From positions 5,710,169 through 5,774,168 of the forward strand of contig OZ025873.1 in the NCBI GenBank assembly GCA_964019415.1: a stretch of 64,000 nt of DNA. Reading direction: 5' to 3'. A program made the translations under genes and the position numbers. Positions 14,005 through 52,222 of this stretch are shown here, in pieces. Source of the stretch: Ianthella basta (lineage: Eukaryota; Porifera; Demospongiae; Verongiida; Ianthellidae). Every line of letters begins with the position of its first letter. The first letter of the stretch is position 1. The notes beneath the pieces were generated by a model, which searched no databases, had not been told where the DNA came from, and was given only the letters and a program-made list of their open reading frames with translations.

Positions 14005-14300
14005 GTTTACACATGCATGTCATTTGCTATATGCACATGTACCATTTACTATGTTTGTGTATGTATACATTTGTGTGGATTGAGCTGGAATCAGTGGAAT
14101 GCATTGTGACATCCATGGCCAATGTGTGCATGCAAAGATCTTTATTCCTCTAATGTTATGCTTGCATCTGTATAACTTGAGAGAGTGGTGATATTTCACA
14201 TAGTGATAAAGTGCAGCTTAACGCATGCATGCAGCTATGTCTGGCCAGCCTATGTACCCTTGGTTGGGTTAATATGCATAGCTACTTGTGCACTTACTGC
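14005..14300 (+). repeat. Orphan 3' flank of an MRH unit
   Basis: Matches the conserved downstream flank of the array genes (for example 31.20-31.50 kb and 43.74-43.89 kb), including GGATTGAGCTGGAATCAGTG, a following GAATGCATTGTGACATCCATGG block and TACCCTTGGTTGGGTT. No exon 4 precedes it, so this is the tail of a lost or rearranged copy upstream of MRH-A. The short frame 13896-14153 is an artefact of this flank. Confidence 0.7.
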
Positions 14301-14682
14301 GTGAAGAAGTGTTAGCTAATTCTTAAGACAGCTACGTAGTAAAAAGGAGTCTATGTCATGTGGAAGACCAGCAATCCGGTCCCACAAGATAAAAGATAGC
14401 TATCTAGATGGTAATCCCACATGTTCAATGACTTTATAGCTACCTGATGACGCCTACAGGGTTTCAGCTTCTCCCAAAGCTGTCAAACTGCGCAATGGTA
14501 TAAACACAAACTGTCAGTTTTCTCCGCGGATGCATACCACTTTGCCTCGATATGCATGTGGAGTCTAAGCAGCATATAGTTACGTATACAGTCACAACAG
14601 TGCTATTTACATCGAAAGACGTCAGGGCAGTACAGTGACCGACGACGCACCTATCCAGCCATTTCGCCATGGGTGGGTCTGG

Positions 14683-14690
14683 TCACGTGA
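14683..14690 (+). promoter_or_regulatory. TCACGTGA E-box upstream of MRH-A
   Basis: Palindromic E-box about 41 bases before the first ATG, inside the type-1 upstream block (about 14.38-14.73 kb). The core equals the M-box/CLEAR core bound by MiT/TFE factors in other animals; a role here is inferred. A TTTAAAAA run follows at about 14694. Confidence 0.45.
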
Positions 14691-14731
14691 TGGTTTAAAA
14701 AGCCATACAGTTTAGATCTAGATTGTTAGTA

Positions 14732-17675
14732 ATGTATGGGCTTGGTGGCATGAAGCTGTTGTTGGGAACGTTTCTGTCCTGCGCGGTTCTCTCCGCGGCG
14801 GATGTATCCGACCTCAACGCCTGCACTTACAAGGCAGACAATGGCGATTTCTTCAACCTATCTAGTGCAATCAAAGGGTGAGGCGCAGTATACAAAATGG
14901 CGTGCTGTCACTGTATTACGAAGGCTCTAAGACAGACTGTTTCTTTTCGAGTTAGGTGTAGTTACCACAAATGTAGCGTGTAGCTAGCTATTTTAACTAG
15001 TTTAATATTACACCGTAGCTAATTGTGTGTAGTCAGCTACATGTGTGCCACTATATTTATAGCTAGCTACATAGCTATGAGTGGATGTGCACTTTACTAC
15101 TGGCAGGATATATACCGACATGTTATCTTGGTATCACTGAAGTTAGTAGTATACTAGGTGTATATGATCAGGAGCGAGATCAGGAGTTACTCCACAGTGT
15201 GTTGTTTCCACAGGGGTGAAGGTTACTTTTTCCAGCAGCTTGTGTCTAATGTTGAAGACAATGCATACGACTATGACTATCTTGCAGATAAAGCCGTGCT
15301 TGGCTTCCAGTTTGATATATGCAGGAACGTGTCTAAAGTTATGTATCCCAGCCTCTGCAAGGAAACTGCTCCTGCCTACCTGGTGTGTGTATGTGTTTGC
15401 ATGCTTTTGTTAGTGCACATGCCCTTGGTCTGCATCACTCCTCATGAGAATACAGTACAGTACATATGTAAATACACACTGTGCTGCAAATTTTGCTGAT
15501 GTACAAATATCATTTGACTCACAACTCACCTCCGAGTTTGACCTTACTTGGCACCATATACTGGGGAACTAAGCCATTACTACTAAGCTGTTCAGGTATT
15601 GCAGTTCCATATTCATGCACTTTGCTGCCTAATTTCATCACATTTATTCATGATTGAAGTATCTTGTCCAGCTAGGGTGCATCACTGGTAATCATCTCGG
15701 AAATCACTAGCCAAAGACTTGATTCTTTACCAAACGTTTTGGCAGCTGACTGCTGCCTTCTTCAGTGGACCACCGAAGAAGACAGCAGTCAGTGGACCAC
15801 TGAAGAAGGCAGCAGTCAGGGGAAGGTGAAATGTTTGGTAATAAATCAAACATTTGGCTAGTGACTTCTAGGACTATCCAATTCATATATACGTATCCTC
15901 TACTGTACCCTAGCTCACTTATGACTCTGCTGGCAATGTGACAGGATGCAAAGCTTTGGGAAAGTGGAGACTGGGCAGGTTTTTCTCTGGTCCTCCTGTG
16001 CACTTCCCTCCTACTCTTACAAAAGGTATGTATATGTAGTGAAACGTTCACAGTCCCCCTAACTTAGACATAATGTATTACTGCTACCCATGCATGCTAA
16101 AGTACACTGACTACTTCATGTATTCTGACTCTTACTCTAAAGTTTAGACAACAGATCAGGGCTAAGGCTATGGCTATACAGTTCATATGGGCATGCTCTC
16201 ATTGCTCACTCAGATGGAATAGAAGCCACTGATATCTTCTTTACTGTGCACGATATCCAGTCATTGACTGCGACCTTGGCTTTGCCTCATTCTTCGACGC
16301 TAACCAGGATATCACATATTTTGGGGGTGAAAATATTTCAATATACTTGTAGGCACTGTTACACTGTGAAAATGTAGTCTGCAAAGTGCACATCTGATGT
16401 TACTCATGTGTGATGAAGTTCCAGTCAGTTTGTAGAGAAGATTTACCAGGCCCAAGGGACTGCTATCCTCAACAACCCTGAGATAAGTCATAATGGAAGG
16501 CAACAAGCTGGTGCAAGGCTGTAGTTGCAAAATTGTCAAAGAATAGGGGCAGCTTAATGGGCGTTTTGGTCATAGTCTTGCCTCAGCCACTCACGGTTGT
16601 GTCTTTACTCAACACTGCCACCAGTACTCCATAGTGCTGCCAAAAAGGGCAGCTATGCGGCCTAGGCCCACAGTCCAGTAGAAAACCATTTGTGGAACTT
16701 GTGCTTATGAATATCTCATATATCATATACGTACATCTTTTCGCAGGACGTTATTTTTGAGAATTTTGCGAATCCGTGGAGGTTCACGAAATTAAATTCA
16801 CAGAAGTTCTTACAATTTCCCAGGGCAATATGCACATACGGAAGGCCTTAAATGGGTAAGTTTGTAGCAAAGAAACGTTTCGTCTGTGCAGAATGGCCAA
16901 GAAGACGATCAAAGATTACTTTTAAGACCAGAGACATCTTTACCAAGGACTTGCCAGCACGAGTAATTGGCACTCCTGTAATTGTGCATACTATCGTGCC
17001 ACCTCCGAACAAGCATGGAGTAAAGGCAGGAATATGGTGCGCAGAACATGTCCCACAGTCAGGCCGTTTTTCTGGACTGCCACCGCGTAAGGATCTTTGC
17101 TGTTTCGTTTTCCGTTCATGCTGGAGAACTGCTCCTGCCGAGCAAACCAGACATCCTTGGAAACGTTATACCCGCAAACACAACTACTTACATGGAGCGT
17201 AGACATTTGTAAAGAGTCAGAAATGATAAAGCACCAATAGAACGAACCAACGCGTACAGCGATGCCTGAGCCACTCTAGGTGGTGATATCTTCCATAGAA
17301 AGGGAGCCATTCGCGAAATTTCAGGGCTTTGCGAAATTAAAATCTCGAAAATTGTCAGGAAAGGGGCATTCGTGAAATATACATTGCGTGAAAATTTGTA
17401 TGTATACAGTATACATGCATATGGCTATTCCATGAAATTTGCTACTTGCAAAAATTTACATTTACAGTATGTCTTGGATAATGTGTGCAGGTGTTGGACT
17501 GGCGTACTTCATGGGTAGCCCTGTGGATGGAAGTGTTGATATTAATTCTTTCAAGTTTTATTCTGTCAAGATATACTTGTATTGTGCGCTATATAATACA
17601 TTTGAACCATTCTTGAATAATATCAAGACCTATGATGAAGTTAACATTTTTGTGGTGACGAAGTATGCCTGCTAG
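14732..17675 (+). CDS. Secreted MRH-like protein, array copy A
   Basis: Exons 14732-14877, 15214-15382, 15914-16025, 17491-17675 (TAG); 203 aa. Residues 1-25 are a signal peptide; the real start may be the inner Met of MKLLLGTFLSCAVLSAADV. The mature part has six cysteines (ACTYK, DICRN, SLCKE, TGCKA, YLYCA, KYAC). The order FF-N-L-S, then a cysteine near F-D-I-C, L-C-K-E-T-A-P-A-Y, LAYFMG, K-I-Y-L-Y-C and terminal TKYAC resembles one mannose-6-phosphate receptor homology domain. N-glycosylation sites lie at RNVS and GNVTG. There is no membrane span; the protein ends at the last cysteine. The Gln/Arg/Glu/Tyr sugar contacts of true M6P receptors are not evident by eye, so lectin activity is uncertain. 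Intron 2 holds a foldback repeat and intron 3 a TIR-like insertion. Confidence 0.68.
15699..15871. mobile_element. Foldback (palindromic) MITE in MRH-A intron 2
   Basis: Outer arms read CGGAAATCACTAGCCAAAGA and (inverted) TTTGGCTAGTGACTTC; inner arms CTGCTGCCTTCTTCAGTGG and CCACTGAAGAAGGCAGCAG. Counterparts sit at the same intron position in MRH-F and MRH-G, and only the right arm remains in C and E. Copy A carries an extra internal duplication of the inner arm. Confidence 0.7.
16720..17405. mobile_element. TIR-like insertion in MRH-A intron 3
   Basis: Absent from the same place in MRH-C, where ATATCTCATCAG runs directly into TATACATGCATAT. The ends are imperfect inverted repeats rich in TTTCGCA/GCGAAA (TACGTACATCTTTTCGCA versus the complement of the right end). 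An open frame at 16852-17202 (116 codons, basic, no recognised domain) lies inside and is not conserved in paralogues. Confidence 0.5.
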
Positions 17676-17951
17676 GTAGTGCCATAGCTTGCAGTTACAC
17701 TCTGGCTACATTTAGGTACATGACATCATACTGTATTCCCACTAGCTATTATACTGGATAGATTGAACACACTTATATCGAGCCATTATTACATTTGCTA
17801 TGCACATGTACCATTTACTATGTTTGTGTATTTTAACATTTGTGTGGATTGAGCTGGAATCAGTGGAATGCATTCTAACATCCATGGCCAATGTGTGCAT
17901 GGAAGGATCTTTAATTCCCTAATTTCCTAATGTTATGCTTGCGTATAGGTA

Positions 17952-18085
17952 TACGGCAGCAGTGCTGGGCCCAGCTGGCTGGCCATCACGTGACCCTTGC
18001 ACGTGAGTCTCAATCACGTGAGGCAGTCACATGAGCCACGGCCACCCCGTCCCCCCATCATGTGACCAGGGTGGCCCCACTATAG
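17952..18085. promoter_or_regulatory. Cluster of five E-box-like palindromes
   Basis: TCACGTGA at 17986-17993 and 18014-18021, GCACGTGA at 17999-18006, TCACATGA at 18027-18034, TCATGTGA at 18058-18065, between MRH-A and MRH-B. Paralogous spacers lack this piece (TATAGGTGTAATGTTTAATA is continuous there), so it is an insertion. Its left end CAGTGCTGGGCCCAGCTGG and right end resemble imperfect inverted termini, as in short hAT-type MITEs. Confidence 0.45.
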
Positions 18086-18709: not shown

Positions 18710-21700
18710 ATGCACGGGCTTGGTCGCATGAAGCTGTTGTTGGGAGCGTTTCTGTCCTGCGCTGTTCTCTCCGCGGCGGATGTATCCGACCTCAACGCCT
18801 GTACTTATAAGGCTGACAATGGCAGTTTCTTCAACCTATCTGGTGCAATCAAAGGGTGAGGCGCAGTCTAGAGAATGGTAGTCTGAGCTGTAGAGTGTTT
18901 AATGTCACTGCATAAACGACTTCCAACTCGTTTCACGTTAGGTATAGTTACCACAAAGTTATCGCGTAGCAAGCTATTCCAACTAGTGTAGTATTACTCT
19001 ATAGTGAATTGTGTGTACTCAGCTACATGTATCCCACTGTTTGGCTAGCTACATATGAGTGAAGGTGCACCTTAATTACAACTGTCAGGATACTGACGTT
19101 ATCTTGGCATCAATGAAGTTAGTAGTATACTAGGTGTATATGATCATGAGTGAGATCAAGATTTATTCCACAGTGTTTTGTTTCCGCAGGGGTGAAGGGT
19201 ACTTTTTCCAGCAGACTGTAAATAATGTTGAAGACGATGCATATGAATACTACGCTTTTGCAGATAAAGCCTTCTTTGGCATCCAGTTTGATATATGCAG
19301 GAACGTGTCCAAAGTTATGTATCCCAGCTTCTGCAAGGAAACTGCTCCAGCATACATGGTATGTGTATGTAATAATTGTTGTAGAGGTTTATTGGCACAT
19401 TGTACTTCAAGTGGAGGAATCGATGAGCAATTCTTGTAGCATAAAAGTCAATAAACTGGATGTTTTGGCCCATGGCCAGAAGTACTACAGAGAGGAGTAC
19501 TTATGAACAACTCTTCTCATAGTTCTATAGCTGAAGAAGGCCCTGTTGCCAGAATATACTGTTGATTAACTTTATGCTGTGTGAATTGCTCATTTATTCC
19601 CCCAATTGAAGTGAGTGTATGTGTTTGCATGCTTTTATATATGCACATGCACTTGTTCTACATCAATCCTCATGAGGATACAGTACAGTACATATCAGAC
19701 AGCATGGTAGTGCTGTCTATGTAGGGATGGTGGTGACAGCAAAGCATTAACAATTAATGGTCCCTACATTCAAGGATGACGCTACATTCTTGCATGTAGG
19801 GACCATTGTTAATGTTGCACTGTGTAGCAGCATTTACTTGTTTTTGTACTTTTTATGCCATTCCTACATCATTACTATTTTTGTAGAAATTTTTATTACT
19901 TCTTGAACATAACTGGTGTGATGCACATTTAGTTGTTGCCTCGAATGTCACTTGACTCACAATTCACCTCTGAGTATGACCTCACTTGGCACCATAAGCT
20001 GTGGACCTAAGCTGTTCAGGTTAACATATTAGAGAGGTTTAGAATAGCGTAAAATGCTATTATTTACAATAAGTTATTGCTCAAGCGTGAATACGTTAAC
20101 GTTAAACGCTTATGTATTTTACGATAGAAACCAAATTTTGTCCTATACCAAATGCGCTGAAGACATTGTAATAATGGTACGATATCCACTGTATCCATGG
20201 GATACCGTAATGTTATTACGTTATGCTAAAGCTCTCTATTCACACACATTGCTCTCTTAATTTCACTCCATTTATTCCCATATATGTATCCTCTCCTGCA
20301 CCCTAGCTCACTTATGACTCTGATCACAATGTGACAGGATGCAAAGCTTTGGGACAATGGAGACTGGGCAGCTTTTTTCCTGTTCCTGCCGCATGGTGGG
20401 CGCCTCTTGGAAAAGGTATGTATACGTATGTAGTGAAATGTTTACAGTCCTACCATAATACTGTAACAGTAACTTTGACATAATGTATTGCTGCTTCCCA
20501 TTCCTGCTAAGTTTGTGTATTAGGCCCTTACTCTAAATTTCCACAAAGAATTGGTGCTAAGGCTATTGGTTATAATTGTGCAAATAAGCAGGCATGCTTG
20601 TTGCTCACTTGGTACTGTTAATGGCACAGGTATGAATTTTCAAGAGTGACACTATTGTGCATGAGTGGAAAAGCTTCTTGATAACAATGCTGTCTATGGA
20701 ATGCTATAAGTTCAGTACTCATTTCTCACAGAATAGGTTCTCAGAGCGGTATAGTTACCGTTTAAGGCTTCATCTCATGTCAGTAGTGTGCCAGGCTTAC
20801 TGTTTAGCTATGAAATTAGCATCCATGTGATGAGTCAGTAACTAAGCTGAGCTTGTCATGACCACATGTATAATCTTATATTTTTATTACTACTGTGACA
20901 TGGTGGTCACTGCTGTTTAACACCAGTGACCACCATGTCCCAGTAGTTTCGCATGCCAGACCCCCTGCAGAAGAGTCTGGTATTAATGTGTATGCTGACT
21001 TGTGTCAAGGACAAAATCCTGCCCTGCCCAATCAGATTCACTGTTTGCTATAATAATTATTATGATGTGAGCCTGAATTTTAGAGAGAGGATTGGCTCGC
21101 TCGCAGGATATGGTTGGACGCACCACAATTTCACTAGGGTACACTCTCGAAACAGAGCAAGAACGATCCGTACAAGCAAAACAATGCGAGTTTGGGCACT
21201 CCATACTTTGTTCGCCGCACTGCCAGACTGTGGACGACATTGTATAAGAGTTAACCACAATATTGCACAATAATTACATTCTTATGGCTCAAATTATACC
21301 AGACTGTCCCGCAGGGGGTCTGGCATGCAAGACTACATGTCTCAGCATGTGCTCATTTGTTGCTCAGCACACTCTTTCAATGAATTCACACAATGGATCA
21401 TGCACACTCTGCATCCTCCTGTTTGGCATTCCTCCCACGTTTTATCTGTGTACATGATCAGATCTAGCTACAATGTTGTATCCTGTTTACTTGTTTAATA
21501 ACCAGTCATCATCTGCGACCTTGGCTCTGCCTCAGTCTTGGGTGATAACACATTTGTACTGGGTTATAACCATTTAACTATAAACATAAAAGGTTTTGGG
21601 GGTGGAAATATTTCACTATATTTGCAGGCACCTTTACACTGCGAAAATGGCACATCAAATGTATCGAGGTCGCTGGCACAATCCAAGCACGCACAACTGC

Positions 21701-24700
21701 GGACGCTAATGGTCACTCACACGTGGTTCCACACCAATTACACCAGAACAAGGCACACGTGCACCATACAAGTCACATGATACATAACCAATCAAAAGCT
21801 ACATCCATGCAGAAGGCAGGCAGAACCAAATGATAATACAAGACCCTAGGGAAACCATGCAGCACTACAGGTAACACAACACAGCTAACATACAGTCACT
21901 ACACCCCTCCCCTTTAGTCAATTGGCACCCCAGAATACGAGACAATCTGGAGGGTGGCGGGGACGGGAGGAACGCCAAAGATCTGCAGAAGGGCCAGCCG
22001 GAGCCACTGGCAGATCAGAGCTTGGAGATGGAATGTCGACCGGGAAAAAGTCATCAGGCTCGTCAGCCTTTGGTGGTACACCATCTGTGGGTGTACGGAC
22101 TCGTACATGGTCTACAAGTCTGCGGACAACCCAGCCGTCCTCCAACTCTACAGTGTAGGAAACTGGCCCCTTCGCCTCTTGAACAACTCCGGGCAGCCAA
22201 GGGGATCCTCTACCAAAGTTCTTGGCATACACCCTAGTGCCCATCACGAACTCTGTGGGTCTTGCATGGGCATCATGCCCCTGCTTCTGCTGATCCTGAC
22301 GGAAGCGTACCCTCCTGCCAATGTCTGGTTTCAGCAGATCCATACGTGTCCGCAACTGACGACCAAACATTAACTCTGAGGGTGTCCCTCCCGTTGTTGA
22401 GTGAGGTGTAGTTCGGTAGTTCAGGAGGAATCTAGACAGGCGGTTAGCCAAACTGCCTTCTGCAATCTTCTTTAGTCCTGACTTAAGCATCTGTACAGCC
22501 CGCTCTGCCAGCCCATTGGATCCCGGGTCGTATGGGGCAGTTGTGATGTGCTTAATCCCATTCATCTGCAACAACAGAGCAAACTCTTCACTGGTGAAGG
22601 ATGGTCCGTTGTCTGTGACCAATTGCTCAGGAAGACCCAAAGTCACAAAGCTGCTTCTCATCTTTTCTATAGTTACCGATGACGTCGAGGAGTTGGTCAT
22701 GTGAACCTCTAGCCACTTAGAGTGAGCATCTATCAAGATCAGAAACATGTGCCCCAGAAATGGTCCTGCATAGTCAGCACGCACCCGCACCCAGGGCTTT
22801 TGGGGACACTCCCAAGGGTGTAATGGTGCTGATGGCGGGCTCTTACGGTTGTCTTGGCAGGGAGCACATTTCTCCACTCGCCCCTCCAGATCTCCATCCA
22901 GTCCAGGCCACCACACATACTGGCGGGCCAGGGCCTTCATTTTTCCAATGCCTGCATGGGTGACCATCATGCAACTGATCTAGGACTTTGCTCCGAAGAC
23001 TTGGCGGCACAAGGACTCTACTTCCCCTCAGCAGGCAGCCATCTTCCACACTCAGCTCCTCACGTCGTTGATTGAATGGTTGCATCTCTGGGGATGTGAC
23101 CGGAAGTGTAGGCCGCCCACATGTCACGAACTGTCTCACCTTGGACAGCGTCGGGTCTCTGTCAGTCTGGGAGCGTATGTTAGCTGCTGATACTGGGGAG
23201 GCTGCCAGGTGCTCCATCAGGAAGACGGTCTCTGCTGGCTGGGGTACCTCAGTTGGCGCCTCTGCTAACGGTAGTCGGCTTAGGGTGTCGGCGTTGGCAT
23301 GCTCCTTCCCTGCTTTGTATCGAATGGTGTAAGAATATCTGCTCAGGGTGAGGGCCCATCTCTGGATTCTCGCTGATGCCATTGCCGGGATTGCTTTTGA
23401 CTCATCGAAGATAAACATCAGGGGCTTGTGGTCCAAGTGGATGATGAAGTGGCGTCCATAGAGGCATTGGTGAAATCTCTTAACCCCGAATATGATGGCT
23501 AGGGCTTCCTTATCTAGCTGGGAGTACCTCTTCTCAGGTGGAGCTAGGGTGCGTGAGGCAAAGGCGATGGGTTTCTCAGTGCCATCTGCCATGACATGAG
23601 ACGTAACTGCCCCTAACCCATAAGGTGACGCGTCACAAGCCAACACTAGCTGTTTCTGGGGGTCGAAGTGTACTAACAGGTCTGCCAACTGAAGCAATTT
23701 CTTCACCTCCTCGAAAGCAGTACTCTGGTCCTTCCCCCAAACCCAGTGGGCCTTCTTTTGGAGCAGATGATACAGTGGGGCCGCTGTGGAAGCCAGGCTG
23801 GGCAAGAACTTGCCATAATAATTTACCAAGCCCAGCAAAGATCTCAGTTCATCCAATTGCTGGGGCTCCGGGGCTTCTGCCACAGCCTGTACCTTGGCCT
23901 CAGTGGGTTGAAGGCCTTCCTTGCTGATCCGGTGACCTAAGTACTCCACCTCCGGCATCAGAAAGGAGCACTTCTCTTTCTTAAGTCTCAGCCCTGCGTC
24001 TTCCAGTCTTTTGAGGACCTCCTCAAGGTTCACCAGGTGCTCCTGCATTGACCTGCCTGAGACGGGTATATCATCCAGGTACACACATACGTTAGTGAGG
24101 CCTTGTAGCACCGACTCCATGGTTCGTTGAAAGATGGTGGGAGCTGAGGCAACTCCAAATGGCAATCGTTGGTAGTGGTAAAGCCCCTTGTGCGTGTTCA
24201 CCGTCACAAATGGTTGTGACTCCCTGGCCAGGGGTAGCTGTAAATAGGCATGTGACAGGTCTAATTTGGAAAACATCTTGCCCCCAGCCAGGGAGGCAAA
24301 CAGGTCCTCAATCAGTGGCATGGGATACACCTCAGTCTTGGTTGCCTTGTTTGCGGTTAACTTGAAATCTCCACAGATTCTAACCATCCCATTGCTCTTT
24401 AGCACAGGTACTATTGGAGCCGCCCATTCGGAATGCTGCACTGGAACTATCACACCCTCACTGTCCAGCTTGTTGAGTTCCTCCTCTACCTTCGACCGTA
24501 GCGCATAGGGTACAGAGCGTGCCTTGAGGAATTGTGGCTGGACATTAGGGTCCACGTGGAGCCTTGACTCCACACCTCGAATCAAACCCAGCCCTGGACT
24601 GAAGACCATTTCATACCTATCCAAGACACTCTGCAGTTCTTCCTCAGCTCATACTGCAAGGATGGTACTCCAATCTAGCTTTAGCTTGGCCAGCCAGTCT

Positions 24701-26699
24701 CTCCCCAAAAGACTTGGGCTATCGCCTGCGACAACAACCAAGGGTAGTTGTTCCACCTGCCCCTGGCACTGTACCTTCACAGAAAGTTCCCCTACCACCG
24801 GAATTTCCTCTCCTGTGTAAGTCCTCAGTTTCACCATGGAGGGATGTAATTGTGGGAGTGAGCTCATACCACCAACCAGATTGAATGTGGCCTCACTGAT
24901 CACCGTGACAGCTGCGCCTGTGTCCACCTCCATGACTAAGTTATGATCCTCCACTGAAATTGGGGTCTGCCAAGGCTTGGCATTTGGGCCTGTAACAGGG
25001 TACATTGTGTACTCCGCTGGAAAGTCTAGGACATCCTGTTGAGCTTTGTGGATGGGCTGCTTAGGACTTGGGGTTCGGCAATCTGTAGGTCTGCTGCGGC
25101 ACACCCTTTTGAGGTGCCCCCTTTTCCCGCAGGCATGACATTCCACATCCCGGAACCGACACTGTGTGTGGTCATGCTGACCACCACACCTGAAGCAGGG
25201 CTTCCTGTCAGCTGGGGACTTTGCTGTCCCTCCATTCACCTTATGAACTGGCTCAACCGGGTGAGTCTCCACCTGCCGCAGCTCCTTGGCATCGCGCTCA
25301 GCCACTTCCATGGCCTGTGCTATTTTCATAGCCTTGTCCAAGGTCAAGTCCACCTCAGCCAGGAGACGCTGTTGGATTCTCGCCTGGGCCAGCCCACAAA
25401 CTAGACGGTCTCGAAGCATGTCATCTAGACTCTGTCCAAACCCACAATGTTCAGAGAGCCGGCGGAGTTCAGCAACATAGCTAGCAATGCTCTCACCTGC
25501 TTGCTGTGTCCTCGAGTTGAACTTGAACTGCTGACAATCTGAGATGGTCTGGGGCTGTAGTGAGCCTGAGCTAATTTCACCAAGTCATTGTATGGGACCT
25601 CCGTTGGCTTCCTTGGGGCCGCCAGACTACATATTATGCTGTAAGTGGCGTCACCACAACAAGCAAGGAGGATTGCTCTCCGTTTCTCGTTGGTAGCAAC
25701 ATCGTTGGCGGTGAAGTAACACTCCAGTTGCTCGATGTACTCTGTCCACCCCTCTGGGTTACGCTGGAACTCACCGATGCTTCTGTGAGTGGCCATTGTC
25801 TGTTGCCGCTTTACCTTCGTCGCCAATATCGAGGTTGCTGGCACAATCCAAGCACGCACAACTGCGGACGCTAATGGTCACTTGCACGTGGTTCCACACC
25901 AATTACACCAGAACAAGGCACACGTGCACCATACAAGTCACATGATACATAACCAATCAAAAGCTACATCCATGCAGAATGCAGGCAGAACCAAATGATA
26001 CTACAAGACCCTAGGGAAACCATGCAGCACTACAGGTAACACAACACAGCTAACATACAGTCACTACAAAATGTTACTCACGTGTGATGAAGTTCCAGCC
26101 AGTTCGTAGAGATAATGTACCAGACCCAGTTGGGGACCGCTCTTCTCAACAACCTAGAGAAAGGCGGTCATGGAAGCCAACAAGCTGGTGCAAGAGGTGG
26201 CAGTTTCACAATTGTCAAAGAACAGGGAGCAATTTAATGAGTGCTTCTTGATTTCTTCTCTTTCCTCAGTCACTCGCAGCTGTGTTTTTACACTGCCACC
26301 CAATATGCTTCACCAGAATATCTACAGTATTGCAACGAAGCGCAGCTAGGCTCACTGTCCTGTAGAAATTGTTTGTGGAATGTGTACTGTGTAACAATAT
26401 TTCCGTGTAAATATCTCATCTGTGCTAACGAATGCATGGCTCTTCCAAAAATTTATTACTTTTACAATAAGTTACATTTGCAGTATGTCTTGGATGAATT
26501 CTCTACAGGTCTTGGACTGGCGTACTTCATGGGTAGCCCTGCGGATGAAAGCGAGGACATTAATTCTGCCAAGTTTTATTCTGTCAAGATGTACTTATAT
26601 TGCGAACCATTTGTTGAATTCAACCCAGTATTGGATAATATCAAGACCTATGATGAAGTTAACATTTGGGTGGAGACAAAGTATGCATGCCAGGTATAG
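18710..26699 (+). CDS. Secreted MRH-like protein, array copy B (intron 3 hosts a Ty3/gypsy element)
   Basis: Exons 18710-18855, 19190-19358, 20307-20415, 26509-26699 (TAG); 204 aa. Signal peptide, six cysteines and phases are as in copy A. Exon 3 ends in a distinct loop (FFPVPAAWWAPLGK), and exon 4 carries GSPADESEDINSAKFYSVKM, then C-E-P-F-V-E-F-N-P. The C-terminus is TKYACQV because TGC is followed by CAGGTATAG. Despite a 4.4-kb retrotransposon and a 0.39-kb DNA element in intron 3, and a foldback element in intron 2, no coding exon is damaged. Whether the 6-kb intron is spliced efficiently cannot be judged from sequence. Confidence 0.66.
19375..19615. mobile_element. Foldback insertion in MRH-B intron 2
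   Basis: Not found in other copies. Inner arms GCAATTCTTGTAGCATAAAA and (inverted) TTTATGCTGTGTGAATTGC flank the element, and GTGTATGT is repeated on both sides, suggesting a target duplication. Confidence 0.5.
20944..21335. mobile_element. Non-autonomous TIR transposon, 10-bp target duplication
   Basis: Ends TAGTTTCGCATGCCAGACCC and (inverted) TAGTCTTGCATGCCAGACCC; 392 bp. Flanks CATGTCCCAG (20934-20943) and CATGTCTCAG (21336-21345) are a duplication of a site that is single in the paralogues (for example CATGTCTCAG near 37.04 kb). The TIR start and duplication length match the element at 54142-54777. A long duplication is typical of Mutator-like elements (family knowledge). Confidence 0.7.
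21657..21661. repeat. Target-site duplication AAATG, left
   Basis: Directly abuts the left LTR; the matching copy is 26069-26073. Confidence 0.85.
21662..21903 (-). mobile_element. Ty3/gypsy 3' LTR
   Basis: 242 bp, nearly identical to 25827-26068 (a handful of substitutions). On the minus strand it starts TGTAGTGACTG and ends CTCGATA. It is the 3' LTR because the polypurine tract lies beside it. Confidence 0.92.
21904..21915 (-). other. Polypurine tract
   Basis: AAAGGGGAGGGG on the minus strand immediately before the 3' LTR; primer site for plus-strand DNA synthesis in LTR elements. Confidence 0.85.
21918..22970 (-). pseudogene. Ty3/gypsy integrase region
   Basis: Encodes the part of pol from the zinc-binding CAPCQ pair (residues ~37-41), through the DDE core (ADYAGPF, VTDNGPSF, then a glutamate in GLAERAVQ), to a C-terminal module ending just before the polypurine tract. 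It lies in a different frame from the RT part; the shift falls near 22965, inside the HHCC region. No chromodomain seen. Confidence 0.85.
22965..24648 (-). pseudogene. Ty3/gypsy reverse transcriptase and RNase H
   Basis: Contains RT blocks with KLDLSHAYLQLPL, the catalytic YLDD motif and LLGLVNYYGKFLP, followed by RNase H (LACDASPYGLGAV, FASRTLAPPEKRYSQLDKEA, HLDHKPL). Continuous open frame apart from the TGA at its start (24649-24651) and the frameshift at its end, so it is one part of a broken pol. Confidence 0.9.
24649..25528 (-). pseudogene. Ty3/gypsy gag C-terminus and aspartic protease
   Basis: Two zinc knuckles (CFRCGGQHDHTQC and CHACGKRGHLKRVC) precede a retropepsin with VDTGAAVTVI and LLGRDWL. 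It ends at an in-frame TGA (24649-24651) directly before the RT, which keeps the same frame. Confidence 0.88.
25529..25796 (-). pseudogene. Ty3/gypsy gag N-terminus
   Basis: Starts at ATG 25796, about 30 bases inside the 5' LTR. The frame is lost near 25530 by a shift of one base relative to the next gag segment. Confidence 0.75.
25808..25825 (-). other. Likely primer-binding site
   Basis: On the minus strand TGGCGACGAAGG... follows the 5' LTR after one base. It begins TGG as expected for complementarity to a tRNA CCA end; the tRNA is not identified. Confidence 0.5.
25827..26068 (-). mobile_element. Ty3/gypsy 5' LTR
   Basis: 242 bp, same length as the 3' LTR and nearly identical; followed by the right target duplication AAATG (26069-26073). 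The element spans 21662-26068 (4,407 bp). Confidence 0.92.
26069..26073. repeat. Target-site duplication AAATG, right
   Basis: Matches 21657-21661. The uninterrupted site is visible in MRH-E at about 37.39 kb (CACATCAGATGTTACTCA). Confidence 0.85.
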
Positions 26700-32198: not shown

Positions 32199-32271
32199 TC
32201 TGTGTATCCGACCTCAATGCCTGTACTTACAAGGCTGACAATGGCGCTTCCTATCTGGTGCAATCAAAGGG
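32199..32271 (+). pseudogene. MRH array copy D, truncated exon 1
   Basis: Retains VSDLNACTYKADNG but lacks the start codon and whole signal peptide. A further deletion after GACAATGGCG removes bases of the F-D-L-S segment and shifts frame. The donor GTGAGG and start of intron 1 follow, then a LINE. Exons 2-4 are absent. Confidence 0.75.
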
Positions 32272-32436
32272 TGAGGTGCAGTCTACAAAATGGCGGGCCT
32301 AAGACCAGTTATCTGAGCTCTAGAGTGTATAATGTCTGATTATGTCACTGAATTACAAATGCTTTAAGCATGCAGAGCTGTTTCTCTGCTGTTTCACGTT
32401 AGGTATACCTATACAAAGTTAGCTTGTAGCACAGGG

Positions 32437-39631: not shown

Positions 39632-40882
39632 ATGAATGGAATGAGTGTCATGAAGCTGTTGTTGGGAGCGTTTCTGTCCTGCGCGGTTCTCTCCGCGGCG
39701 GATGTATCCGACCTCAACGCCTGTACTTACAAGGCTGACAATGGCGATTTCTTCAACCTATCTGGTGCCATCAAAGGGTGAGGCGCAGTCTACAAAATGG
39801 CGGGCCTAAGACCAGTTGTCTGAGCTGAGAGAGAGAGCGTGTAGAGTGTTTAATGTCTGATTATGTCACTGAATTGCGAATGCTCTAAGACCGAACTGTT
39901 TCTATGCTGTTTCACGTTAGGTATACCTACCACAAAGTTAGCTTGTAGCTAGCTAGCTAGCTATTTATATTATGATGAGTGTAGCTAGTATAATATTACA
40001 CTGTACTACTTGTGTGTACTTAGCTACATGTGTCCCACTATTTGTTATAGCTACATATGAATGAAAGTGCACCTTACTACTGACAAGATACTGACATGTT
40101 ATCATGGCATTAATGAAGTTAGTGTTACACTAATTATACTAAGAACCAACAGGAGCCACAGTGAGATCAGGAGTTACTCCACAGTGTGTTGTTTCCACAG
40201 GGGTGAAGGGTATTTTTTTCACCTGATGCTATCTAAAGTTGAAGACGATGCATACGACTACGACTATCTTGCAGATAAAGCCTTCTTTGGCTTCCAGTTT
40301 GATATGTGCAGGAACGTGTCCAAAGTTATGTATCCCAGCCTCTGCAAGGAAACTGCTCCCGCCTACATGGTGTGTGTATGTGTTTGCATGCTTTTGTTAG
40401 TGCCATGCCCCTGGTCTGCATCACTCCTCATGAGGGTACAGTACAGTACATATGTAAATGCACACTGTGCTGCAAATTTAGTTGTTGTAACATCTCATTT
40501 GACTCACACCTCACCTCTGAGTTTGACCTATGGTAGCACCATAAGCCGGGAACTGAGCCGTTCAGGTATTGCAGCTACCATATTCACACACATTGCTGTC
40601 CTATTTTCATCCCATTTATTCATGATAAAGAAGCTTGTCCAGCTAGGTTGTATCACTGGTAACCATCTCGGAAGTCACTAGCCAAAGACTTGATGTTTTG
40701 GCAACTGACTGCTGCCTTCTTCAGTTGATCACTGAAGAAGGCAGCAAGACAGCTGCCAAAACATTTGGTAAAGAATCAAATCTTTGGCTAGTGACTTCCG
40801 AGAGAACTACCTCATTTTTAGGGGCTGCCTGCGGCAGCCCCTATATTGTTTTCAAATTGACGTTTTCATATGGCTTCATGTT

Positions 40883-41764: not shown

Positions 41765-41799
<35 letters not shown>

Positions 41800-43605
41800 A
41801 CATGTGTATGTGTGTGTGTGGTCATGTAGCTATGTTTGGTGACTAGTGGTGTATGCGTACTGTCACTGAGGTGTATGACACAATGTCATGTGTTACCAAT
41901 CATGAGTGACAGAGCAGCGACCGAAGGGAGCAAGTATTTCAGGTTGGGGCGGCAGCCCCACGAGTTTTTTTTAACTCGAAATACTTGTTTCACATGTATG
42001 TATCCTCTCCTGCACCTTAGTTCACTTATAACTCTGCTGGCAATGTAACAGAATGCAAAGCTTTAGGAAAGTGGACACTGGGCAGTTTTTTTCCTGTTCC
42101 TACCACAATTCAGGCACCTCCGCACTTCCCTTTTCCTCTTACAAAAGGTATGTATATGTAGTGAAATGTTCACAGTCCCCCTAACTTAGACATAATGTAT
42201 TACTGCTACCCATGCATGCTAAAGTACACCGACTAGTTCCGACCGACTAGTTCAAGTTTTCACTCTTACTCTAATGTAAACGGACCATTGCTAAGGCTAG
42301 GCCTGAGCCAATTATTCAGTCAATATTCCCCATTATTTTATTCAAATATTTTCGCTACTTGGACCTATTATTTGCACACTAACCACCTATTATTCACCAA
42401 AGATCAGCAGGTTTCTGATGAAATACAACGTCAAAATTGGCTTACGAGTGAGATCAGATGGCGTCGGGGCCTTCAGACAGTCTAGCAGGGACAAAACATG
42501 GCTCACAACAGGAGAATCATTGGAAGTGAAGTCGCTTTTTGAATTCGCTCGATTGTCGGCAGGTTCCATTAACTCCAAAGCACTGGGGACGTCACCTTGA
42601 ATAGCTGTTGAACTCGTAGCTGCCATGTTTTCACACCACACTGTTGCGTAATAACCTACAGGTTCTGTATTTTACCCGAATATTCTCGCATAATTCTCAA
42701 TGCGAAGCAGCACCGATTATTCGAGAAATTATGCTCACATAATTGGCAAAGGGTTCCTTTCCTGCCCTTTGCGCAATATAAAATGGCTGGAGTGGGTCTG
42801 GGCTACGTCAGACTAAGGCTATGAGTTCAGTGGGCATGCTCGTTGCTCACTTGGTACTGTTAATGGCACAGGTATAAATAAGTGAGAATGACACAAGAGT
42901 GCATGAATGGAAGTGCTTCTTGATAAAATGCTGCCTGATGAACGCTATGAGTTCAAATTAAGTTCACATACAGTCGTGGAAGTTATTAGGTATACTGAGT
43001 TTATGATAGCTTGATTTTGTTGGAAGATTGAGCACACCAGGGACACCTGTTAATTCAATGCAACGTTTTGCTCATCATGGATTTCATTAGGCATGCAAAA
43101 CTGAGAATAAAAGAAAAGGTGACCACTTTATATACAAGCACAATGAGCAATGATTGGTCAGTTTTGGCTGTGACCAATCAGGTGAATAGAATTGTTTGAT
43201 CCTTTACAGGCCTAATTAGGGAGTTCCACACTACTCAGGGAAACCCCAAGTCCATGTTTTTCTTTAGACCCACTGTCCAGTAGCAAACCTTTTGCGGAAG
43301 TGTACTACATGAAAATATATTTCCTTGTAAATACTTCATCTATATTATTAAATTATGCAAATGTCTCTTCCACAATTTATTCTTGCAAACATTAACATGT
43401 CTTGGATGAATTCTCTACAGGTCTTGGACTGGCGTACTTCATGGGTAGCCCTGCGGATGGAAGTGAGGACATTAATTCTCTCAAGTTTTATTCTGTCAAG
43501 ATATACTTGTATTGTGATCCAGATAATGTATTCTACCCAATGTTGGATAATATCAAGACCTATGATGAAGTTAACATTTTTATGTATACAAAGTATGCCT
43601 GCTAG
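39632..43605 (+). CDS. Secreted MRH-like protein, array copy F
   Basis: Exons 39632-39777, 40201-40369, 42021-42147, 43421-43605 (TAG); 208 aa. The first ATG gives MNGMSVM before KLLLG; the third Met is the likely signal-peptide start. Exon 2 differs from other copies by YFFHLMLSKVEDDAYDYDY. The exon 3 loop is FFPVPTTIQAPPHFPFPLTK. Exon 4 contains C-D-P-D-N-V-F-Y-P-M and IFMYTKYAC. Upstream type-1 block with a degenerated E-box (TTATGTGA near 39599). Intron 2 holds a foldback MITE and a 1.17-kb repeat; intron 3 a hAT-like insertion. Nearly identical to copy G in exons 1-3. Confidence 0.68.
40678..40802. mobile_element. Foldback MITE in MRH-F intron 2
   Basis: Arms GGAAGTCACTAGCCAAAGA/TCTTTGGCTAGTGACTTCC and CTGCTGCCTTCTTCAG/CTGAAGAAGGCAGCA; same position as in copies A and G. 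Confidence 0.7.
40818..41987 (+). repeat. 1.17-kb insertion: dispersed repeat, copy 2
   Basis: Starts with the perfect hairpin GGGGCTGCC-TGC-GGCAGCCCC (40822-40842) and ends with GGGGCGGCAGCCCC, CGAGTTTTTTTTAACTCG and AAATACTTG. Contains (AT)n (about 40889-40930) and interrupted (GT)n (about 41570-41830). MRH-G lacks it (CCTCATTTCTTCACATG is continuous), so it is a post-duplication insertion. Related to 600-955. The transposon class is not clear. The open frames here show no known domain. Confidence 0.65.
42300..42813. mobile_element. hAT-like fragment with 8-bp target duplication
   Basis: TAAGGCTA occurs at 42292-42299 and 42814-42821; MRH-G has it once (GCTAAGGCTATGAG). Inside, on the minus strand from about 42624, a frame starting MAAT contains LLDCLKAPTPSDLTRK. 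That resembles N-termini of transposase-like proteins (recollection of the family, not checked). An 8-bp duplication is typical of hAT elements. Confidence 0.55.
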
Positions 43606-45707: not shown

Positions 45708-48021
45708 ATGAATGGAATGAGTGTCATGAAGCTGTTGCTGGGAGCGTTTCTGTCCTGCGCGGTTCTCTCCGCGGCGGATGTATCCGACCTCAACGCCTGT
45801 ACTTACAAGGCTGACAATGGCGATTTCTTCAACCTATCTGGTGCCATCAAAGGGTGAGGCGCAGTGTACAAAATGGCGGGCCTAAGACCAGTTGTCTGAG
45901 CTGAGAGAGAGAGCGTGTAGAGTGTTTAATGTCTGATTATGTCACTGAATTGCGAATGCTCTAAGACCGAACTGTTTCTATGCTGTTTCACGTTAGGTAT
46001 ACCTACCACAAAGTTAGCTTGTAGCTAGCTAGCTAGCTATTTATATTATGATGAGTGTAGCTAGTATAATATTACACTGTACTACTTGTGTGTACTTAGC
46101 TACATGTGTCCCACTATTTGTTATAGCTACATATGAATGAAAGTGCACCTTACTACTGACAAGATACTGACATGTTATCATGGCATTAATGAAGTTAGTG
46201 TTACACTAATTATACTAAGAACCAACAGGAGCCACAGTGAGATCAGGAGTTACTCCACAGTGTGTTGTTTCCACAGGGGTGAAGGGTATTTTTTTCACCT
46301 GATGCTATCTAAAGTTGAAGACGATGCATACGACTACGACTATCTTGCAGATAAAGCCTTCTTTGGCTTCCAGTTTGATATGTGCAGGAACGTGTCCAAA
46401 GTTATGTATCCCAGCCTCTGCAAGGAAACTGCTCCCGCCTACCTGGTGTGTGTATGTGTTTGCATGCTTTTGTTAGTGCCATGCCCCTGGTCTGCATCAA
46501 TCCTCATGAGAATACAGTACAGTACATACGTAAATGCACACTGTGCTGCAAATTTAGTTGTTGTAACATCTCATTTGACTCACACCTCACCTCAGAGTTT
46601 GACCTATGGTAGCACCATAAGCCGGGAACTGAGCCGTTCAGGTATTGCAGCTACCATATTCACACACATTGCTGTCCTATTTTCATCCCATTTATTCATG
46701 ATTAAAGAAGCTTGTCCAGCTAGGTTGTATCACTGGTAATCATCTCGGAAGTCACTAGCCAAAGACTTGATTCTTTACCAAATGTTTTGGTAGCTGACTG
46801 CTGCCTTCTTCGGTGGACCACTGAAGAAGGCAGCAAGACAGCTGCCAAAACATGTGGTAAAGAATCAAATCTTTGGCTAGTGACTTCAGAGAGAACTACC
46901 TCATTTCTTCACATGTATGTATCCTCTCCTGCACCTTAGTTCACTTATAACTCTGCTGGCAATGTAACAGAATGCAAAGCTTTAGGAAAGTGGACACTGG
47001 GCAGTTTTTTTCCTGTTCCTACCACAATTCAGGCACCTCCGCACTTCCCTTTTCCTCTTCCGAAAGGTATGTATATGTAGTGAAATGTTCACAGTCCCCC
47101 TAACTTAGACATAATGTATTACTGCTACCCTTGCATGCTATAGTACACCGACTAGTTCATGGTTTCACTCTTACTCTAATGTTTAGACAACAGACCATTG
47201 CTAAGGCTATGAGTTCAGTGGGCATGCTCGTTGCTCACTTGGTACTGTTAATGGCACAGGTATAAATAAGTGAGAATGACACAAGAGCACATGAGTGGAA
47301 GTGCTTTTTGATAAAATGCTGCCTGATGAACGCTATAAGTTCAAATTAATTTCTCATACAGTCGTGGAAGTTATTAGGTATACTGAGTTTATGATAGCTT
47401 GATTTTGTTGGAAGATTGAGCACACCAGGGACACCTGTTAATTCAATGCAACATTTTGCCCATCATGGATTTCATTAGGCATGCAAAACTGAGAATAAAA
47501 GAAAAGGTGACCACTTTTATACAAGCACAATGAGCAATGATTGGTCAGTTTTTGTTTAACTATGCTGTGACCAATCAGGTGAATAGAATTGTTTGATCCT
47601 TTACAGGCCTAATTAGGGAGTTCCACACTACTCAGGGTAACCCCAAGTCCATGTTTTTCTTTAGACCCACTGTCCAGTAGCAAACCTCTTGCGAAAGTGT
47701 ACTACATAAAAATATTTCCTTGTAAATACTTCATCTATATTATTAAATTATGCAACTGGCTCTTCCACAATTTTTTTCTTGCAAACATTAAACATTTACA
47801 GTATGTCTTGGATAATGTGTGCAGGTCTTGGACTGGCGTACTTCATGGGTAGCCCTGCGGAGGGAAGTGAGGACATCAATTCTCTCAAGTTTTATTCTGT
47901 CAAGATATACTTGTATTGTGAGCCAGATGATGTTTTCCACCCAGTGTTGGATAATATCAAGACCTATGATGAAGTTAACATTTTTATGTTGACAAAGTAT
48001 GCATGCCAGGTAGTGCCATAG
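45708..48021 (+). CDS. Secreted MRH-like protein, array copy G
   Basis: Exons 45708-45853, 46277-46445, 46940-47066, 47825-48021 (TAG); 212 aa. Exons 1-3 are almost identical to copy F (exon 2 differs by one Met/Leu residue), showing very recent duplication. Exon 4 differs more: GSPAEGSEDINSLKFYSVKI, then C-E-P-D-D-V-F-H-P-V and a C-terminus extended to TKYACQVVP because the stop after the last cysteine is replaced. Signal peptide and six cysteines intact. Intron 2 carries the foldback MITE but not the 1.17-kb repeat of copy F. Confidence 0.68.
46746..46891. mobile_element. Foldback MITE in MRH-G intron 2
   Basis: Arms as in MRH-A and F: GGAAGTCACTAGCCAAAGAC... and inverted ...CTTTGGCTAGTGACTTC, with the inner CTGCTGCCTTCTTC pair. 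Confidence 0.72.
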
Positions 48022-48098
48022 CTTGCAGCTACACTCTAGCTTATATATATAGGTACATTATAATAATTATGACATCATGCTGTATTCCCACTATTATA

Positions 48099-48603
48099 AT
48101 TTGTATAAATAATGAATATTGTAATCCGTGAAGTGGAGCATGCCTCCTTTGTGCCCCTAGTGCTGTCCTGCACCGGTGGAGCAGGTCCCTGTGCAACTAA
48201 CCTTTTCCAAAGGCTGGCAGCCTTGCAAGCCGAGAAGCACCACTCCACCTACAGCATGGTGACGGAATTGCTTCGTTGCTGCCTCAGCTTTGCCCTCTTG
48301 CGATCAGCTATCGCATGCCTCAGGAGTGCACGGTCAACCTATCACCACCCAGGCCGAATCGACATGAGTGCTGTGGACCTTGCAATGTCCGAGGGTTGGG
48401 TGGAGCGCAATTAACTAACGATATTCTGACGATACATCATCTTGTCACTTGCTATTTTTCACTATGTATTCTGACATAATCAATGTTTCATGACATAAAT
48501 TCTACTTATTATTGTATAATATTATACAGTGTGTGTGCTATATTATTGTTATAAATGTTTATAACATACCTATCTAATACATTATTATTATACCTGATAA
48601 TTT
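48099..48603 (+). mobile_element. 5'-truncated LINE 3' end with 16-bp target duplication
   Basis: TATTCCCACTATTATA at 48083-48098 recurs at 48604-48619; F has it once. The frame 48112-48414 includes VEHASFVPLVLSCTGGAG, LFQRLAAL and CLSFALLRSAIACLRSAR, a C-terminal segment common in animal non-LTR retrotransposon ORFs (recollection). Long duplication and 5' truncation fit target-primed reverse transcription. Confidence 0.7.
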
Positions 48604-48999
48604 TATTCCCACTATTATACTAGATAGATTGAACATTTATATCAAGCTGTAATCATTACATGTCATTTGCTATGCACATGTACCATTTACTATATTTGTG
48701 TATGTATACATTTATGTGGATTGAGCTGGAATCAGTGGAATGCATTGTGACATCCATGGCCAATGTGTGCATGCAAGGATCTTTATTTCTCTAATGTTAT
48801 GCTTGCATGCGTATAAGTGTAATGTTTAATACTATGCCATAATTATTATTATTACGTATACACTGTAGTTATGTCATATTATTATTATTATTATTATTAT
48901 TACACTATAGTTCTGTCATTCGACTTTGATGTGTTCAGTATGTGAACACTATCTAAGTTGAACATATGTGATCACATGTTTGCTCCCATAATTATTTCT

Positions 49000-49770
49000 C
49001 TCTGTCTGAGGCAATGCCATGCACGTAGCTCCTCCAGTCCATGTCTACTCCACAGGCTGAGGTCAACTTTCTGTACATCTTGCTGTAGTGTACTTAGCAG
49101 ACATTGCTTGGGCCTTCCTCTTTGAGATCAGCATCTATACCCACTGATATATATCTAAGGCAGCCTGTACAGGTGGTGTAATTGGCAGTCATATAGGCAG
49201 TGGCCTAATTTAAAGTCTTAGTCTAGCGAGTTGCAGATCTACTAATAGAGGGCAGGTTTTGGTGACTCAGTTTGTACAGGGCCTCATTGTTGATGTGGTT
49301 TGACCATCTGTACCATGCAGCCATGGTCCGTAGATGACGCCAGTGGTAGGCACATAATTTCTCAGTAAGGGCAGCAGTCAATCCCCATGTTCCACAACCA
49401 TACAACAAAACAGGGCAGACTAGAGCATTCCAGATTCGAACTTGCAATGGTAGTGATGCACTCACATTAGCAAACAATCCAAGTAGCCGATGGAAGGCCA
49501 CGGTTGCTATCTGCATTCTTCGTGCTGCATCTTCTTTTCCCAGTAGGGATCCTGGTGTTTTCACTTTCCTCTATTCTGTGGCATCATGATGAATGTGTAC
49601 TCGCTGTGTCTTGTCTCCACTGCAATAGTGATGATAAAATGGTAATTCCAACATGTCTAACATCCGTGACTTCTAGATGTGATAGGCTTGTGGACAATAG
49701 GTCAGTGCCATATGCATATATACTGAATTCAACAGGGAACCCAGTGTTTGCATGGTCTTTATAGGGGGAG
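49000..49770 (-). mobile_element. LINE 3' fragment, copy in MRH-G flank
   Basis: Near-identical to 44.04-44.86 kb; minus frame 49223-49564 with KEDAARRMQIATVAFHRLLG, VRIWNALVCPVLLYGCGTWG and RHLRTMAAW. Small indels shift frames. Confidence 0.7.
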
Positions 49771-50459
49771 AGATAGAAACATGGATTGCACGTTCTGGAG
49801 GACTGACTCAAATGTGGTGGCAATTGGGCTTTAAGGCTGAAGCTGTCCCCTTGTGGAACACCTAGCTACTGTTGATTCAAGCGGTAGGCTTTTCTCTTTC
49901 ATAAGTTGTACTCTTAGGGTGGTTCCTGACAAATAGGGTATGAGCGATTTGAGAGATATTATAGTCCTCTCCATTTATGTTTAGTATGTAGCTACTCTAT
50001 ACATACCATTATAAACCTATGTGAGGTCTTCCACCGAGTGTAGATAGAAGTGCAATGATTTATATTAGCATGCAGTTGTGTAAACACAGCCTGGGGATTG
50101 ATAGCTATGAAATATCGCTACATATACACTAAGCTAGCTAACAGCTGTAGCCAGCTATTCACTGATACAGAATGTGTAGTATCTTGCAATAGAGTAGCTA
50201 GCTAGCTAGCTATTGATGAAATCTATTGCAACCTGCAATCTTTGAGCAATTTCAAGCTACACATGTACAGCTAGAGATGCATGTGGTGGAGCAGATCTGA
50301 GGCGATGAGGGTTCATTATTCCATGATAACAGGCCTACTCTGTCAGTTGATGAGTGGAATGTGCGGCCAGGTTTATTATTGCGCAATCGCACGTTTCGCG
50401 AGCCATAACTTGTAAGCGCCCGGAGGCGGAACGAGTCTAGCGCGAAAGGGTGGAGTGCC

Positions 50460-50467
50460 TCACGTGA
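50460..50467 (+). promoter_or_regulatory. TCACGTGA E-box upstream of MRH-H
   Basis: Fifteen bases before the ATG, in a type-2 block (about 50.23-50.48 kb) like MRH-B. Confidence 0.45.
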
Positions 50468-50482
50468 GAAGAAAAGTTGGTC

Positions 50483-52222
50483 ATGCATGGGCTGGGTGGC
50501 ATGAAGCTGTTGTTGGGAGCGTTTCTGTCCTGCGCGGTTCTCTCCGCGGCGGATATCTCCAACCTCACAGCTTGTACTTACAAGGCAGACGATGGCAGTT
50601 CCTTCGACCTTTCTCCTTTGATCAGAGGGTGAGCATTTTACTGAACGTCGCTGGTAATAATGCAGCCTACCAGCTACCTGCGTATGTTTATATACCACAC
50701 GAGCGCAGTGGTATTAGCCTCTTTCGGGTACTTCCAGCGTGTGGGACAGTTAGATAGGAAAATTCTCAGTGCCACATTATTTGTATGCATTGAAACAAGC
50801 TTTTGCAGTTTCAAGTCACGACTAGCTAGCTAAGTCTGCCTGTATACAGCTATTGCTAATTGTGAGTATATGTGTTTCTTGTGTTCAAAACTCTTCCGGT
50901 GTTCAGTTATTGGGTGTACATGTTGGTGTGAAAGTGCAACCAGTAGCTGTTGATGTAGTATACTGGTTATCATATGAGCAATGGGTAATCATACACTTGT
51001 TCCCTTCTGTGCAGGGGTGAAGGGTACATTTGGAACCAGACTGTATATGATGTTGGAGGTGATGAATACATCAACACAAAATTTTCAGGCGAGGTTATGT
51101 TTGGCTTTCAGATGGACATGTGCAGAAATGTGTCCAAAGTAGCGTATCCCAGCCTCTGCAAAGAAGCTGCTCCTGCCTACCTGGTGTGTGTATGTGTTTG
51201 CATGCATTCATAAGTGCACGATGTCCCCGCCACATTGTCTTGAGGATTTGTGTTTGTTGGTGTATTGATATGTGTATACTTTATCATGTGGCACTTCATA
51301 TAGTTGCACTCTCTCGTATTCCACCCCATGAGCTCAAATATATGTGCCATATCCCCTGCACCTCAGTTCACCTTTGACTCTTCTGGCAAAGTGGCAACTT
51401 GCAATGCATTGGGAGATTGGAGGCTGGGCAAGTTTTATCCCGTTCCAAGCAAGACTGGTATGCTGTAATGGTAGTCGTAGTAGTAAGTAATATCTTTCAC
51501 TTAAGATACTGTACTCCATCACTACATGATGGATGCACAGTTGTGGGTACAATTAATAAATATAGTATATGCTGTGCCACTCCCAAGATGTGTGTTGCTT
51601 TACTTTTTATGTTATAATGTGTAGCTACTGCCTGTGTGTAGCTATAGTGTGCAGCTATGCTTATGCTTTTATAGCAATTGGGCCTTGATTTGTCCTATGA
51701 TATTGACTCTATTGCTGCTACCCTTGATAAGTCACCGACCCCAGTACTTACAGTCTACAAAGGAATGGTGCTAAAGGCTATGCCTTATTGCACAATTCAG
51801 TAAGCATACTTAAAATTTAAGGTTTAATGGCACAAGTATGCTTTAGTGGGTGTGACATGATAGTACAAGAGTACAGTGAAATGCTGTCTAATGAATGTAA
51901 TCATATGTATTTATACCATAGTGTGTCAGAGCTCATACTGTCACTACCTTGATATGAAAATAGCACCCTTGTAAACAACACTAGCTCAATTGTACTCATG
52001 CATAGCTTGGAATAACCTCACCCTGTGCTCGACTTGACACCTGTAGGTCTGTATCTGGCGTATTTCATGGGTAGCTCTGTGGATGGTGGTGATGACAACC
52101 GATATGCCATCAGGATTTACTGCATCTGTGAGAAGGATACCACAATCACTGTGGAGTTGGAGCATATCAAAACCTTCAATGAAGCCCATATCCGAGTGAT
52201 GACCAAGTATGCATGTGCCTAA
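50483..52222 (+). CDS. Secreted MRH-like protein, array copy H (most divergent)
   Basis: Exons 50483-50628, 51015-51183, 51367-51457, 52047-52222 (TAA); 193 aa. The signal peptide is the same as in the others, but the mature protein differs: ACTYKADDGSSFDLSPLIRG, which is the classic F-D-L-S-P-L of MRH domains, then GEGYIWNQTVYDVGGDEYIN. Exon 3 has the shortest loop (KFYPVPSKTG). Exon 4 has GSSVDGGDDNRYAIRIYCIC and VMTKYACA. All six cysteines are kept (IYCIC supplies one more). Its direct exon 3 to exon 4 junction in a short intron confirms the four-exon model for the whole family. Introns are mostly free of the elements seen in other copies. Confidence 0.7.

Follow-up and report, generated by a model that had tools for sequence, protein, structure and literature searches.

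A tandem array of seven predicted secreted single-domain MRH-like genes

Results

Organization of the Array

The analyzed window is a 64,000-nt stretch of contig 6 (positions 5710169-5774168) in a 209-Mb, 96-contig assembly. Seven four-exon genes, all in the same orientation, occupy window positions 14732-52222 in models built from splice signals. Each of the seven predicted genes has GT..AG introns and one open frame, with exon lengths of 146, 169, 91-130, and 176-197 nt and intron phases 2, 0, and 1; across all seven, exons 3 and 4 differ in length by multiples of three. The predicted proteins are 193-212 aa long and 57-96% identical to gene 5, and successive gene starts lie 3978, 9380, 6992, 4550, 6076, and 4775 nt apart. 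An initial annotation had described seven same-orientation four-exon genes with these exon lengths and fixed phases, and the splice-signal models bear it out. Its array end at 52222 is exact; its start at 14005 has to be moved, since the first exon begins at 14732 and 14005-14731 gave no tblastn match to any of the seven proteins. The array comprises the following features:

14732-17675, plus strand, gene 1: exons 14732-14877, 15214-15382, 15914-16025, 17491-17675; 203 aa
18710-26699, plus strand, gene 2: exons 18710-18855, 19190-19358, 20307-20415, 26509-26699; 204 aa
28090-31083, plus strand, gene 3: exons 28090-28235, 29110-29278, 29618-29744, 30899-31083; 208 aa
32153-32254 by tblastn (32203-32293 by blastn), plus strand, degenerate copy of exon 1: no more exons found beside it
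35082-38024, plus strand, gene 4: exons 35082-35227, 35581-35749, 36164-36293, 37840-38024; 209 aa
39632-43605, plus strand, gene 5: exons 39632-39777, 40201-40369, 42021-42147, 43421-43605; 208 aa
43516-43548, plus strand, variable loop after the fifth mature cysteine (gene 5 codons 180-190), counted back from the model stop codon
45708-48021, plus strand, gene 6: exons 45708-45853, 46277-46445, 46940-47066, 47825-48021; 212 aa; 96% identical to gene 5
50483-52222, plus strand, gene 7: exons 50483-50628, 51015-51183, 51367-51457, 52047-52222; 193 aa

Upstream of gene 1, the stretch at 13936-14154 is a copy, 63% identical, of the stretch directly after gene 1 (17705-17923); it is perhaps the remnant of a lost eighth gene. 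Within the third intron of gene 2 (6.1 kb) lie minus-strand retrotransposon frames (21918-25877): Pfam identifies reverse transcriptase and RNase H, and gag-like and integrase-like frames are recognizable by eye.

Two further regions of the window carry recognizable features. A class 3 lipase motif (PF01764) lies on the plus strand at 9404-9700, adjoined by a long repeat array with 26-nt spacing (9563-10858); upstream, at 2743-3753, a membrane-rich frame looks diacylglycerol-lipase-like by eye and has no Pfam match. On the minus strand, 61335-63764 contains four repeats of ~190 nt. Both frames scanned there match Sushi, one of them also EGF-like, and they are probably part of a larger gene.

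Features of the Predicted Proteins

The precursors begin with the hydrophobic stretch MKLLLG(A/T)FLSCAVLSA, which is signal-like by eye. Genes 1-6 encode mature chains with six cysteines and gene 7 one with seven, so that the six per gene first described hold for every copy except the last. The C terminus is exactly TKYAC in four of the seven (genes 1, 3, 4, and 5), and extra residues follow it in gene 2 (QV), gene 6 (QVVP), and gene 7 (A); all seven chains thus end at or a few residues from TKYAC, as had been noted, and at most 4 residues past the last cysteine. Each protein carries an NVS sequon at residue 87. A KDEL-type ending is absent from the array proteins.

Mean hydropathy over 19 mature residues peaks at only 0.52-0.89 across the genes, so no membrane segment is visible. 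The membrane anchor and sorting tail of P-type lectins are absent, the mature chains having no hydrophobic stretch; with nothing anchor-like in any copy, the earlier description of a single domain without a membrane anchor fits all seven genes. Also absent from all seven are the cysteines of G-x-x-C and of C-x-Y, which we take to be a disulfide pair of MRH domains. Because CI-MPR domain 5 is without the same pair, its absence here is compatible with a working barrel.

Evidence for and against MRH Homology

The motifs C..FDLS, F.F.[IV]C, C..C..LG, L.Y..G, I.F.C, and T..AC occur in this order in all seven proteins, with single-residue variants. We compared the seven-member mature alignment by hhalign with nine CI-MPR domains taken from PDB alignments (chains 6um1, 6v02, and 6z32), some of them partial stretches. 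The match has a probability of 94.85, an E of 4.8e-8, and a score of 51.4 over 131 columns; none of 300 column shuffles reaches 51.4, the best scoring 24.3. Against 17 domains the score is 36.9, reached by none of 250 shuffles (best, 22.1). Among further hhalign controls, the reversed alignment scores 16.2 and four unrelated window sequences 9.4-15.8. Gene 7, which has an FDLSPL motif, is the most divergent copy and fits MRH profiles better than any other single gene. On its own it scores 33.7 in hhalign; in HMMER it lies above all 2,793 scored shuffles (3,000 made; the rest unscored).

Four template sets were tried in all: The match became clear when the nine CI-MPR domains were added and stronger when those nine were used alone. 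Six contig-21 domains gave a probability of 1.3%. Seven own-genome sequences together with the database protein P0008 gave 5% and a score of 22.1; the local score was above all 200 shuffles, whereas with global alignment 76 of 200 shuffles scored higher than the unshuffled family. Taken singly, genes 1-6 score 15.8-24.5 in hhalign, near the shuffle maxima, and in HMMER they are matched or beaten by 1-18 of 2,390-2,667 scored shuffles (3,000 made per gene). In a leave-one-out comparison by hhalign, known MRH domains reach 53-155, all above the array family.

Searches with established models and structures point the other way. At the Pfam cut-off, none of the seven genes matches any model, including PF00878, PF02157, and PF09451; weak matches below the cut-off come from gene 7 only (ATG27, E 0.044; OMP_b-brl, E 0.075). 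Scanning the whole genome with PF00878, PF02157, and PF09451 at E up to 10 gave 6, 20, and 7 matches, respectively, on other contigs and none in the array, and no MRH chain turned up when gene 5, the family, and exon 4 were searched against PDB sequences. We judge Pfam, PDB-sequence, and large protein-database searches to lack the sensitivity needed for this family. A structure model of gene 7 exon 4 alone was poor (mean pLDDT 52.3) and carries no information on the fold.

The profile search that the initial annotation had proposed as a check therefore gives a divided answer: a family match by hhalign, and no gene at the Pfam cut-off. The same holds for the MRH domain that it had assigned, which is favored by a full-length profile match beating all column shuffles, by motif order, and more weakly by the introns described below, and disfavored by the Pfam result. 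On balance, MRH homology is supported at the level of sequence.

Extent of the Family

Searched against the whole genome at E up to 10, gene 7 has at least 29 matches, every one on contig 6: the array exons and one exon-1 relative ~8 kb before the window. In a large protein database, six proteins match the whole family and eight match exon 4, with P0005 in both sets. These matches are reading frames that each cover a single exon of the array or of a near copy, so we found no full-length relative from elsewhere. P0005 corresponds to exon 4 of gene 7 at 93% identity, and the same stretch is contained in P0006. An MRH query to this database returned two proteins. The family looks lineage-limited, as far as can be judged from a database in which animal gene models seem scarce. 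Among the papers listed by literature searches, no title describes a secreted MRH array.

Sugar-Contact Columns

Four aligned columns—Gln, Arg, Glu, and Tyr, presumably the phosphomannose contact residues of MPR domains—are changed in every array gene: Gln to Leu or Met, Arg to Tyr, Glu to Ile, and Tyr to Val or Ala. Nor does any of the seven have a Gln between cysteines 3 and 4. The suspected loss of sugar contacts is thus apparent in the alignment of all seven copies. Gene 7 has an Arg one residue off the Arg column, and genes 2, 5, 6, and 7 (four of the seven) have an acidic residue two columns off the Glu column; a small alignment shift could restore some contacts. Because the contact columns are changed in the alignment and no anchor is visible, we do not class the array family as P-type lectins.

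Variation among Copies

Among genes 1-6, pN/pS for exons 1-4 is 0.43, 0.42, 1.42, and 0.80, respectively, and 0.67 overall. For the 11 loop codons that follow the fifth cysteine, pN is 0.34 and pS 0.31, a ratio of 1.09. Three or more residue types occur in 7 of 11 loop columns vs. 19 of 202 columns elsewhere in these six genes (Fisher P = 4e-5), in a test that treated gaps as a residue type and whose region was picked after the alignment had been viewed. In aligned MPR domains, this stretch carries the Glu column. Variability is concentrated in the loop, short of positive selection: We make no such claim because the loop ratio of 1.09 comes with high pS, and claims of selection were dropped altogether, the gene pairs not being independent.

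A CD-MPR-Like Array and Its Introns

The same genome contains tandem CD-MPR-like genes on contig 16 (~2,098,854-2,146,510; L061, L062, and L064), an expansion of the sorting receptor itself. One exon is found there at nine places over ~48 kb, five of them ~4.3 kb apart, and six of the nine places exceed the PF02157 cut-off with their neighbors in frame. One copy, joined by hand, scores 60.8 bits against PF02157; the copy keeps Arg, Glu, and Tyr in the contact columns and has a Gln three columns off the Gln column. Elsewhere in the genome, a PF00878 search found a CI-MPR-like gene with several domains. Several neighboring places on contig 13 (~1,357-1,365 kb) and contig 17 (~4.94-4.95 Mb) have matches to PF02157 and PF09451 that fall at the end of the profiles and were not used as MRH.

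Our intron comparison uses one contig-16 copy, joined by splice signals, whose phases are 2, 1, and 0 vs. 2, 0, and 1 in the array genes. In both, a phase-1 intron stands directly before the L-x-Y strand, the two positions being three columns apart in a MAFFT alignment. The phase-2 intron follows the cysteine at residue 31 by 18 residues in the array and by 21 in the contig-16 copy when the cysteines are matched by hand; MAFFT leaves the first cysteines unaligned and puts the first introns 19 columns apart. One intron therefore matches clearly and another only by hand matching of cysteines.

Discussion

Interpretation and Rival Explanations

The reading that we prefer, with somewhat less than even confidence, is a lineage-limited tandem family of secreted, divergent MRH barrels that have lost the phosphomannose contacts and bind another ligand. 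Under this proposal, a CD-MPR-like gene would have lost its membrane anchor and perhaps become the ancestor of the array family. Each present-day protein would be a single MRH barrel, if the fold that we infer is correct, without the phosphomannose contacts and one disulfide; its presumed secretion would make it a binding protein outside the cell. The former sugar-binding face may take another ligand, either a protein or another glycan, and one loop would have diversified between copies. Because one intron matches clearly, and another by hand, in the one copy compared, we favor descent from a CD-MPR-like gene without regarding it as proved. Because the first-intron match needs hand-matched cysteines, our confidence in this best explanation is slightly lower, and that in convergence slightly higher, than it would otherwise be.

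In a more far-reaching version, the MPR barrel of an early-branching animal, its pocket face rebuilt and one loop diversified, would have given rise to a germline-encoded set of secreted proteins that recognize self, symbionts, or microbes; such a recognition role is conceivable, and we consider it doubtful. If the preferred reading is true, this genome, which has an expanded CD-MPR-like array as well, shows how a sorting lectin can be put to new use as a scaffold for binding outside the cell, and the copies of the secreted family are natural variants for asking which loops set the ligand.

Loss of the phosphomannose contacts need not mean loss of glycan binding. The proteins may be secreted MRH-barrel lectins with a rebuilt pocket and another specificity, a minority possibility to which we give real weight: MRH homology by profile agrees with it, the variable loop sits in the stretch carrying the Glu column of MPR domains, and the nearby Arg of gene 7 and acidic residues of four genes could serve as contacts. 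Against this, all seven genes carry other residues in the Gln, Arg, Glu, and Tyr columns, and a nonsystematic look turned up no invariant polar residues that might replace them as a set. The MRH likeness itself might be convergent, or a product of cysteine spacing in an unrelated family of small, cysteine-rich secreted proteins. Such a view can point to the Pfam cut-off that no gene reaches, weak single-sequence scores, two template sets without significance, and the poor exon-4 model. We judge it unlikely, given a full-length, in-register profile match that same-composition shuffles do not reach and a phase-1 intron near the same place in the CD-MPR-like gene.

Two other accounts receive still less credence. 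A housekeeping cofactor would hardly be expected as tandem copies with a variable loop, and the array proteins have neither a KDEL-type ending nor an extra domain; moreover, ER lectins bind glycans, and such contacts seem lost here. That these are soluble lysosomal or ER/Golgi cofactors like OS-9, glucosidase II beta, or GNPTG is accordingly improbable, even with the NVS sequon at residue 87 in all seven copies and with known soluble MRH proteins described as acting in those compartments (PMC6272264). Least credible, and in our view very improbable, is that the genes are weakly constrained copies being lost, with no common present function. The overall pN/pS of 0.67, the exon 3 value of 1.42, and the degenerate exon-1 copies nearby would suit such decay, but all seven frames are intact, all length changes are multiples of three, and exons 1 and 2 have pN/pS of 0.43 and 0.42.

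Comparison with Known Systems

Most known MRH domains belong to trafficking receptors or ER/Golgi factors. OS-9, glucosidase II beta, and GNPTG are soluble MRH proteins with further parts and low copy number; they resemble the array proteins, MRH-related by sequence and predicted to be secreted, in being soluble and MRH-containing. OS-9 and glucosidase II beta are described as glycan binders of the ER (PMC6272264).

Like the array proteins, CD-MPR (PF02157) has one MRH-type domain per chain and a first exon with the start and the first cysteine. In the CD-MPR-like contig-16 copy, as in the array, exon 1 is followed by a phase-2 intron, and the phase-1 introns of the two lie close together in the alignment. 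The array differs from CD-MPR in having no anchor or tail, no aligned Gln, Arg, Glu, or Tyr, and one cysteine pair fewer; it also has an additional phase-0 intron and extra sequence inserted ahead of the second cysteine.

CI-MPR (IGF2R), a 15-domain receptor in which domain 5 is reported to bind phosphodiester glycans and domain 11 IGF2 (PMC7481795), supplies the domains that give the full-length profile match. Domain 5 resembles the array proteins in lacking the G-x-x-C/C-x-Y pair, in its FDLSPL start, and in its T-x-Y-A-C end, but it retains the four contact residues in the alignment. Domain 11 is a precedent for a protein ligand of an MRH domain, although it belongs to a large receptor, and the array sequences give no sign of a hormone ligand. 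Set beside these systems, the array family is MRH-related by profile, yet apparently not a P-type lectin.
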